DNA of 64,000 bases from Halostella limicola (lineage in GTDB: Archaea > Halobacteriota > Halobacteria > Halobacteriales > Natronoarchaeaceae): positions 744,001 through 808,000 of the forward strand of contig NZ_RCDI01000001.1 of assembly GCF_003675875.1 (NCBI RefSeq). The letters are read 5' to 3'. Shown piece after piece: positions 61,545 through 62,882 of this stretch (the stretch's first letter is position 1; every line of letters starts with the position of its first letter). The notes beneath the pieces were generated by a model. That model made no database searches and was not told where the DNA came from. It saw nothing but the letters and a program-made list of their open reading frames with translations. The position numbers were made by a program, and so were the translations under genes.

Positions 61545-61624
61545 CTCTCGCCGCTGCGCTCGGTCGAAACGTCCAGTATCGAAAACCGTGAACACTCATT
61601 AGGGTGGGTGCCATTTCCCCCCGT

Positions 61625-62554
61625 ATGAGCTTCGAGGACATGGACGTGGACACGATCTGGATGGACGGCGAGTTCGTCGACTGGGACGACGCCCAGATCC
61701 ACGTCCTGACCCACGGCCTGCACTACGGCACCGGCATCTTCGAGGGAGTCCGCTGTTACGACACCGAGCAGGGCCCCGCCGTCTTCCGCTGGGAGGAGCA
61801 CCTCGACCGCTTCTACAACTCGGCGAAGCCGTACGACATGGACATCGACTTCTCGCGGGAGGAGCTCACCGAGGCGACGCTGGAGCTCATCCGCCGGCAG
61901 GACCTCCAGTCCTGCTACATCCGCCCGCTGGCCTTCTACGGCTACAACAGCCTCGGCGTCAGCCCGAAGGACTGCCCGACCCGCGTCGCAATCGCCTGCT
62001 GGCCGTGGGGCACCTACCTCGGCGAGGAGGCGCTGGAAGAGGGCGTCGAGGTGATGGTCTCCTCGTGGCGCAAGCACGCCTCCAGCCAGATCCCCACGAA
62101 CGCGAAGACGACGGGGCTGTACGTCAACAGCATGCTCGCCGGCGAGGAGGCCCGCCGCAACGGCTACACCGAGGCCATCGTCCTGAACAAGGAGGGACAG
62201 GTCGCCGAGGGCCCCGGCGAGAACCTCTTTCTCGTCCGCGACGGCGAGCTGTACACGCCCGGCCTCTCCCAGAGCATCCTCGACGGCATCACCCGCGAGA
62301 GCGTCATCGAGGTCGCAGAGGACCTCGGCTACACCGTCCACGACGACGCCACCATCTCCCGCGGCGAGCTCCACACCGCCGACGAGCTGTTCTTCACCGG
62401 CACCGCCGCGGAGGTCACCCCCATCCGGCAGGTCGGCAACGTCGAGATCGGCTCCGGCACCCGCGGCCCGGTGACCGAGGAGATCCAGCAGCGCTTCTTC
62501 GACATCGTCGAGGGCCCCACCGAGGGGTACGAGGACTGGTTCACGTTCGTCTAA
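61625..62554 (+). CDS. ilvE: Branched-chain amino acid aminotransferase
   Basis: A 309-residue fold-type IV aminotransferase. It interconverts leucine, isoleucine and valine with their keto acids, using PLP bound to Lys161 (NAKTTGLYVNSML). Other motifs: HGLHYGTGIFEGVRCY, IVLNKEGQVAEGPGENLFLV, GITRESVIEVAEDLGY and ELFFTGTAAEVTPI. Start at the ATG at 61625; codons before it do not fit the family. Immediately after the stop lies a remarkable cluster of palindromes. Confidence 0.95.
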   Translation: MSFEDMDVDTIWMDGEFVDWDDAQIHVLTHGLHYGTGIFEGVRCYDTEQGPAVFRWEEHLDRFYNSAKPYDMDIDFSREELTEATLELIRRQDLQSCYIRPLAFYGYNSLGVSPKDCPTRVAIACWPWGTYLGEEALEEGVEVMVSSWRKHASSQIPTNAKTTGLYVNSMLAGEEARRNGYTEAIVLNKEGQVAEGPGENLFLVRDGELYTPGLSQSILDGITRESVIEVAEDLGYTVHDDATISRGELHTADELFFTGTAAEVTPIRQVGNVEIGSGTRGPVTEEIQQRFFDIVEGPTEGYEDWFTFV

Positions 62555-62573
62555 CGACCTTTGCGCTGTCGTT

Positions 62574-62864
62574 CGGAAATCGCAAAGCGATTTCCGCGAT
62601 CTTCAAAAGAGCGCTGTGCGCTCTTTTGGACCTCGCCGAGCTTCGCTCGGCTCAGTGACGAGACGGCGAAGCCGTCTCGAACCACGCGACGCGAACGGCC
62701 GGCCGCGGGCCGGCACGTTCGCGAGGCTCGGCAAAAGCTCGACCAAAATCACTGCGTCGTCTGCCCGCGGGCCGCCGGCCCGCTTGCACGGTCCGAGGCG
62801 CCTTTGCCGCCTCGCTACTCTCGTCGCAGCGCCGAGGACGCTGCGGTGGTCGCCTTCGGCGACC
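62574..62864. repeat. Array of nine palindromes between ilvE and carS
   Basis: Nine inverted repeats follow each other in 291 bp. Stems and loops: 62574-62596 (10 bp, AAA), 62604-62628 (11 bp, TGT), 62635-62651 (7 bp, TTC), 62659-62679 (9 bp, GAA), 62691-62722 (14 bp with one bulged A, GCG), 62767-62783 (7 bp, GCC), 62794-62814 (7 bp), 62825-62845 (7 bp), 62848-62864 (7 bp, TTC within a C-TTCG-G context). Seven have 3-nt loops. Stem sequences differ from one another. There is no gene, no repeat-spacer order and no tRNA shape. Confidence 0.85.
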
Positions 62865-62882
62865 CGAGGAGGAGCAAGGTCG

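Follow-up and report, generated by a model that had tools for sequence, protein, structure and literature searches.

The nine hairpins that fill the spacer between the converging genes ilvE, encoding a class IV aminotransferase, and carS of Halostella limicola are best read, on sequence grounds, as two facing gene-end elements, here termed scaffolds, one behind ilvE and a degenerate one behind carS, with one of the two swollen by three inserted two-hairpin modules. The scaffold is a structured unit that recurs directly behind coding stops across Halobacteria, and with moderate confidence we consider it to be a transcript-end element, probably a terminator and possibly a bidirectional one, decorated by mobile repeats.

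Composition of the ilvE-carS spacer

A preliminary description of the window (the whole 64,000-nt stretch analysed) had listed nine consecutive palindromes, mostly with 3-nt loops, at 62574-62864 between converging ilvE and carS. All nine were recovered at these positions, both neighbours and their orientation were confirmed, and a 3-nt loop closes seven of the nine hairpins, the other two (hairpin 7 at 62794-62814 and hairpin 8 at 62825-62845) having loops of 7 nt. The description had also judged the array too dense for chance. Although the DNA is 69% GC and short-loop palindromes also occur in coding DNA, the probability that chance clustering in GC-rich spacer DNA explains the hairpins is vanishingly small. 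Seven of the 28 perfect palindromes with stems of at least 7 bp and 3-nt loops in the window fall within 291 bp (binomial p ~4e-11), and the folding energy of the spacer lies 8 s.d. below that of dinucleotide shuffles on either strand (z = -8). Across the 864 kb of the source genome used for genome-wide palindrome statistics, the comparison with shuffled sequence that had been proposed gave 29 wholly intergenic loop-3 stems of at least 8 bp where shuffling of the intergenic DNA gave 3.4; at other loop lengths the enrichment was smaller and less even. Loop-3 stems of at least 7 bp numbered 22 in 33 kb of convergent spacers versus 5 in 38 kb of divergent ones. The compensatory changes among homologous copies, described below, likewise argue against chance. 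An ordinary conserved ilvE-carS spacer was rejected as well, since no such hairpins follow carS in the two nearest species compared and the element is missing from the 3' flank of ilvE in the nearest species; in Halostella pelagica the neighbour behind carS differs from that in the window.

The single array implied by the preliminary description proved to be a composite, its hairpins belonging to five different units (Table 1). From the ilvE stop codon the order is the 5' arm of a stem P1, hairpins 1-4 (module I split by module II), hairpin 5, the 3' arm of P1, a second A-tract, module III (hairpins 6 and 7), hairpin 8 and, on the carS side, hairpin 9. The window P1 5' arm has one T fewer than most copies (T3 only). 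The covariance model of module I, R3, matches at 62569-62635 and 62643-62686, and at the insertion point of module II, inside the module I linker, locus L122 carries a different 54-bp hairpin pair with other stems. The degenerate carS scaffold reads TAACGACCTTGC...CTCGGGTCGCCGAAGGCGACC (hairpin 9) on the minus strand, in the layout seen in L187. Five-unit membership, the dispersed-repeat nature of the element and its anchoring 0-5 nt behind stop codons had escaped the preliminary description.

Table 1 Features of the ilvE-carS spacer (window positions)
Feature	Position	Strand	Comparison
ilvE ORF	61604-62554	+	Pfam Aminotran_4
ilvE stop codon TAA	62552..62554	+	
Scaffold P1 5' arm, GACC TTTGC	62556..62564	+	aligned with 34 other copies
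Two-hairpin module I (TCGTT-hp-CGA//TGA-hp-AACCA), at scaffold GCTG^CG, split by module II	62569..62684	+	uninserted copies in L164, L141, L157 and others
Hairpin 1, 10 bp, module I	62574..62596	+	
Two-hairpin module II, nested in CGA^TGA linker of module I	62600..62655	+	absent from L112, L135, L139, L143, L145
Hairpin 2, 11 bp, module II	62604..62628	+	
Hairpin 3, 7 bp, module II	62635..62651	+	
Hairpin 4, 9 bp, second hairpin of module I	62659..62679	+	
Hairpin 5 = scaffold inner hairpin P2, 14 bp, one bulged A	62690..62723	+	stem and bulge conserved in GGTCCGCC type copies
Scaffold P1 3' arm, GCAAAAGCTC	62731..62740	+	covaries with 5' arm
Conserved unpaired block, CGACCAAAATCAC; second A-tract = T-tract on minus strand	62741..62753	+	
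Two-hairpin module III (TCTGCCC-hp-TTGCACGGTC-hp-CTA), inserted at CGTCG^CTC	62760..62817	+	same in L121, absent in L137; lone copies L140, L146
Hairpins 6 and 7 (7 bp each), module III	62767-62783, 62794-62814	+	
Hairpin 8, 7 bp = scaffold second-domain hairpin	62825..62845	+	same hairpin without module III in L137
Hairpin 9 (62848-62864, 7 bp) and degenerate carS scaffold, stop-CGACCTTGC..CTCGG GTCGCC gaa GGCGACC	62848..62879	-	L187 386-460, same layout, T6

Structure and placement of the scaffold

Used as a DNA query, the spacer returned many partial copies in the source genome and in four genomes of the same genus, including H. pelagica, among them one at G000:C2:881077 with 91% identity over 162 bp and one at G000:C7:19026 that covers the first 193 bp at 79%. 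Query positions 1-46 adjoin 102-199 in several copies, which therefore lack the second and third hairpins. Scaffold covariance models extended the matches to many GTDB families of Halobacteria: R1, built on 10 copies, found further copies in 21 of 59 genomes, and R2, built on 35, found 7-17 per genome in several families, these counts being lower bounds because the first-look filter scored few candidates, and including some matches that are the opposite strand of one copy.

The aligned copies share a layout of stop codon, 0-5 nt, GACCTTTTGCGCTG, a 7-14 bp hairpin, CTCGGCAAAAGCTCGACCAAAATCAC and a second domain, which in many copies ends with GCCTGCCCTTCCCCG and a last hairpin. The T-tract stem P1 (GACC-TTTTGC ... 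GCAAAAG-CTC) joins the T-tract to an A-tract 50-80 nt downstream; a variable, well-paired inner hairpin (P2) and the conserved CGACCAAAATCAC with the second A-tract complete the unit, and additional hairpins extend over ~150-200 nt. P1 pairing is copy-specific, for example with GACCTTTTGC opposite GCAAAAGCTC, AACCTTTTGC opposite GCAAAAGGTT, GAAATTTTGC opposite GCAAAATTTC and GACCTTTTAC opposite GTAAAAGGTC. Among 34 distinct sequences, 149 compensatory cells were counted versus 41.8 in shuffles, 93% of cells pair and 18 of 24 pairs have changed on both sides, in an alignment fitted by R1, which already pairs P1 and so favours structure; a smaller MAFFT alignment gave 9 compensatory cells versus 1.8. 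The flanking pairs of P1 and all 14 pairs of P2 vary on both sides. At the centre of P1 three U-A pairs are invariant, which means that the T-tract is conserved as sequence too. No Rfam 15 covariance model matched the element at its gathering score (best 23 bits, sbcD, gathering 40). The earlier suggestion of a structured RNA thus finds support in strong covariation, with no known Rfam family to which the element could be assigned.

Stop-codon position played no part in finding the copies. Even so, 73 of 110 non-identical copies begin 0-5 nt past a same-strand coding stop and 10 more begin 6-40 nt past one; in several further copies the called start is shifted by an inserted module. An opposite-strand stop lay within 40 nt of none of the 110. 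Four consecutive T residues occur within the first 14 nt of 89 of 98 scaffold copies, versus 27 of 284 gene ends and 7 of 508 gene starts. The next gene is convergent for 41 of 77 copies versus 72 of 284 (p = 7e-6), about half of the copies lying outside convergent spacers.

The same genes recur upstream of the scaffold in different families: TFS (families f1, f7, f17), a KaiC-like ATPase (f1, f12, f17), ilvE (f1, f6, f7, f17), and a PAPS-reductase-domain protein and AMMECR1 (f1, f17), together with genes that we take from their sequences to encode an EngB-like GTPase (f7, f12), PAN-type AAA ATPases (f1, f7, f17) and the thermosome (f12, f17). Behind carS, weak to fair matches lie 0-8 nt downstream in Haloferax, Halogeometricum, Halobacterium and Halobium, that in Haloferax being weak. 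The ilvE element itself is present in G000 (the source genome), G041, G013, G040 and G037 and absent from G001-G004; gain and loss are therefore frequent, and since the four nearest species compared lack the element, it is dispensable in them. In L239 one gene is followed by three scaffold-like units in tandem, at 1217, 1359 and 1501, which repeat every ~142 bp.

Three copies sit directly past a tRNA 3' end, in each case its second copy. At these loci (L339 1563-1700, L357 1563-1716, L297 15326-15443) a repeat of the tRNA 3' end lies ~100-120 bp further downstream, a small non-coding insert separates the two copies, and the scaffold comes after the second; the arrangement resembles site-specific integration of a very small element.

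Candidate role at transcript ends

Archaeal terminators are described as mostly bare T-stretches in which structure plays little role. The fixed place of the scaffold behind stops and tRNA ends, its sequence-conserved T-tract, the presence of a T-tract on either strand and the preference for convergent spacers point to transcript ends. In the mechanism we propose, the plus-strand T-tract would end the upstream transcript, the two A-tracts, which are T-tracts on the minus strand, would stop transcription arriving from the other side, and the hairpins may aid RNA polymerase pausing or shield the new 3' end. The bidirectional terminator named among the options of the preliminary description accordingly keeps its support in placement and strand symmetry, termination itself being the putative step. 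In Haloferax volcanii, T-stretches are the main intergenic terminators, termination reaching 95% with T5C and 59% with one hairpin (PMC7237163); taken with the placement and the T-tract, this makes two-way termination the most likely reading. Several points count against it. Transcripts ending at the T-tract would contain no P1, and the covarying arms would then have to act in DNA or in RNA that reads through. The window copy carries T3 only, the four nearest species compared do without the ilvE element, about half of the copies lie outside convergent spacers, and the count of P1 covariation comes from an alignment whose model already pairs P1.

The main rival, which we regard as possible yet rather unlikely, is that the scaffold is fully transcribed and acts post-transcriptionally, its hairpins blocking 3'-5' mRNA decay or P1 sensing or slowing terminating ribosomes in the manner of stop-proximal E. 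coli REPs. The RNA-like covariation of P1 and P2, the start of P1 only 0-5 nt past the stop and the continuation of hairpins for ~150-200 nt would all suit such a role, as would the report that REPs within 15 nt of a stop stall ribosomes (PMC12306157). However, copies also stand behind the 3' ends of tRNAs, a place without ribosomes, which weakens a purely translational role, and the T-tract is conserved as sequence beyond what pairing would ask.

Among known systems, archaeal T-stretch terminators (PMC7237163) share with the scaffold a T-tract directly behind the gene, and an active hairpin terminator is also known; they consist of a bare T-stretch or a hairpin from the coding region, whereas the scaffold unites its T-tract, the A-tract that pairs with it, the inner hairpin and the second A-tract in a single unit that is conserved and covaries. 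Bacterial hairpin-cluster intrinsic terminators, as summarised in PMC8355165, also place several hairpins past the stop and are proposed to terminate jointly, but they serve another polymerase in another domain and are defined there by hairpin content rather than as a conserved family. With a covarying T-tract stem conserved among haloarchaeal families at a set distance from gene ends, direct tests of what structure contributes to 3'-end formation in archaea would become possible, and Haloferax, with its weak match behind carS, is a possible genetic host.

Two-hairpin modules

The inserts are modules of ~58 bp, each of two hairpins, seated within the scaffold at unpaired points; three are present in the window copy, one nested in another. 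Insertion points were set by comparing copies that carry an insert with orthologues and paralogues that lack it. Module I reads TCGTT-hp-TGATGA-hp-AACCA and, besides the point occupied in the window, is found at another scaffold point in L168. At the ilvE site it fills CTT^CGTCG in G040, whereas the site is empty in the sister species G013, with no target duplication. Such filled and empty sites agree with the earlier idea of a landing site for palindromic insertions; the label palindrome-generating does not fit, the inserts bringing their own palindromes. The stems of module I are highly variable and yet almost perfectly paired (45 compensatory cells versus 17.8 in shuffles), and its linkers are constant. 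R3 matched 46 of 59 relatives, and 41 of the 43 near-complete genomes among them, its match counts including both strands of a nearly symmetrical module. A phylum-wide draw of 148 genomes gave 24 with R3 matches, all in one order, that of the relatives.

The modules are most likely passengers, putatively mobile and REP-like, that lengthen a loop while P1 stays intact; they may be tolerated because the helices they add leave P1 unbroken. That scaffold and modules alike are selfish mobile repeats favouring gene ends or T-tracts, with covariation arising from palindrome repair by template switching and with no host function, seems unlikely. The dispersed copies, the patchy presence behind ilvE and the nesting and wide spread of the modules speak for it, but the scaffold recurs at the same orthologous genes across families, which random landing would hardly produce, its orientation relative to the gene is fixed and its T-tract is conserved.

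REP/REPIN elements, including CGTC-tagged ones (PMC3733652, PMC3116915), are likewise short dispersed extragenic palindromes, often inverted dimers; the modules share their dispersed and, judged from the copies inspected, intergenic occurrence and their paired palindromes in inverted order, and the unpaired CCA tail of CGTC REPs has its counterpart at the end of module I. The modules differ in their 3-nt loops, freely varying stems, constant linkers (TGATGA, AACCA) and Halobacteria hosts. No GTAG or CGTC tag stands beside the module palindromes, whose ends are TCGTT and AACCA with TGATGA as linker, and unlike RAYT-mobilised REPINs the modules abound in several genomes without a Y1 transposase: no PF01797 (Y1/RAYT transposase) was found in module-rich G002, G013, G040, G043 and G049. 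The sole Y1_Tnp locus of the source genome (L220 1500-3060), apparently an IS200/IS605 element with an IS605-type accessory gene, has end hairpins which, compared at that locus, are unlike the modules. Mobilisation by IS200/IS605 elements was rejected on these two grounds. PATEs and other small mobile repeats of Haloquadratum walsbyi (PMC3119063) resemble the modules in being small, transposase-free and palindrome-bearing, in lacking target duplication and in inserting into other repeats; PATE palindromes resemble IS605-type ends, a possible difference from the modules, which do not resemble the IS200/IS605 ends of the source genome; the Haloquadratum elements were compared through their description. 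The kinds that scaffold and modules resemble (terminators, REP/REPIN, PATE) are already known, and the defining REPIN features looked for, tag and Y1 transposase, are absent as described above. Rfam and the literature within reach of the search, most subscription papers lying outside it, held no earlier description of either scaffold or module.

The presence of the module family in nearly every near-complete Halobacteria genome searched, several without a matching transposase, raises the question of its mover. A bolder and more tentative reading takes the scaffold for an ancient structured element common to Halobacteria, which terminates transcription on both faces, holds its T-tract within a covarying stem and has been retained behind a set of housekeeping genes and tRNAs. 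On this reading the scaffold would also house a mobile two-hairpin repeat of pan-haloarchaeal range, and the enzyme that moves this repeat would not be one of the known Y1 transposases.

In genus g7 (L338, L355, L379-L382) module I occupies another kind of dispersed repeat, AAAGCCCCAG..GGCGCACGCTCGCTG^module^CTCCTCGGTCGCTC. More twin-hairpin types with other linkers (TGGGCTG; CGTAC; GACCTC) occur in L161, L156, L177, L132 and L291, which suggests that module I is one of several families.
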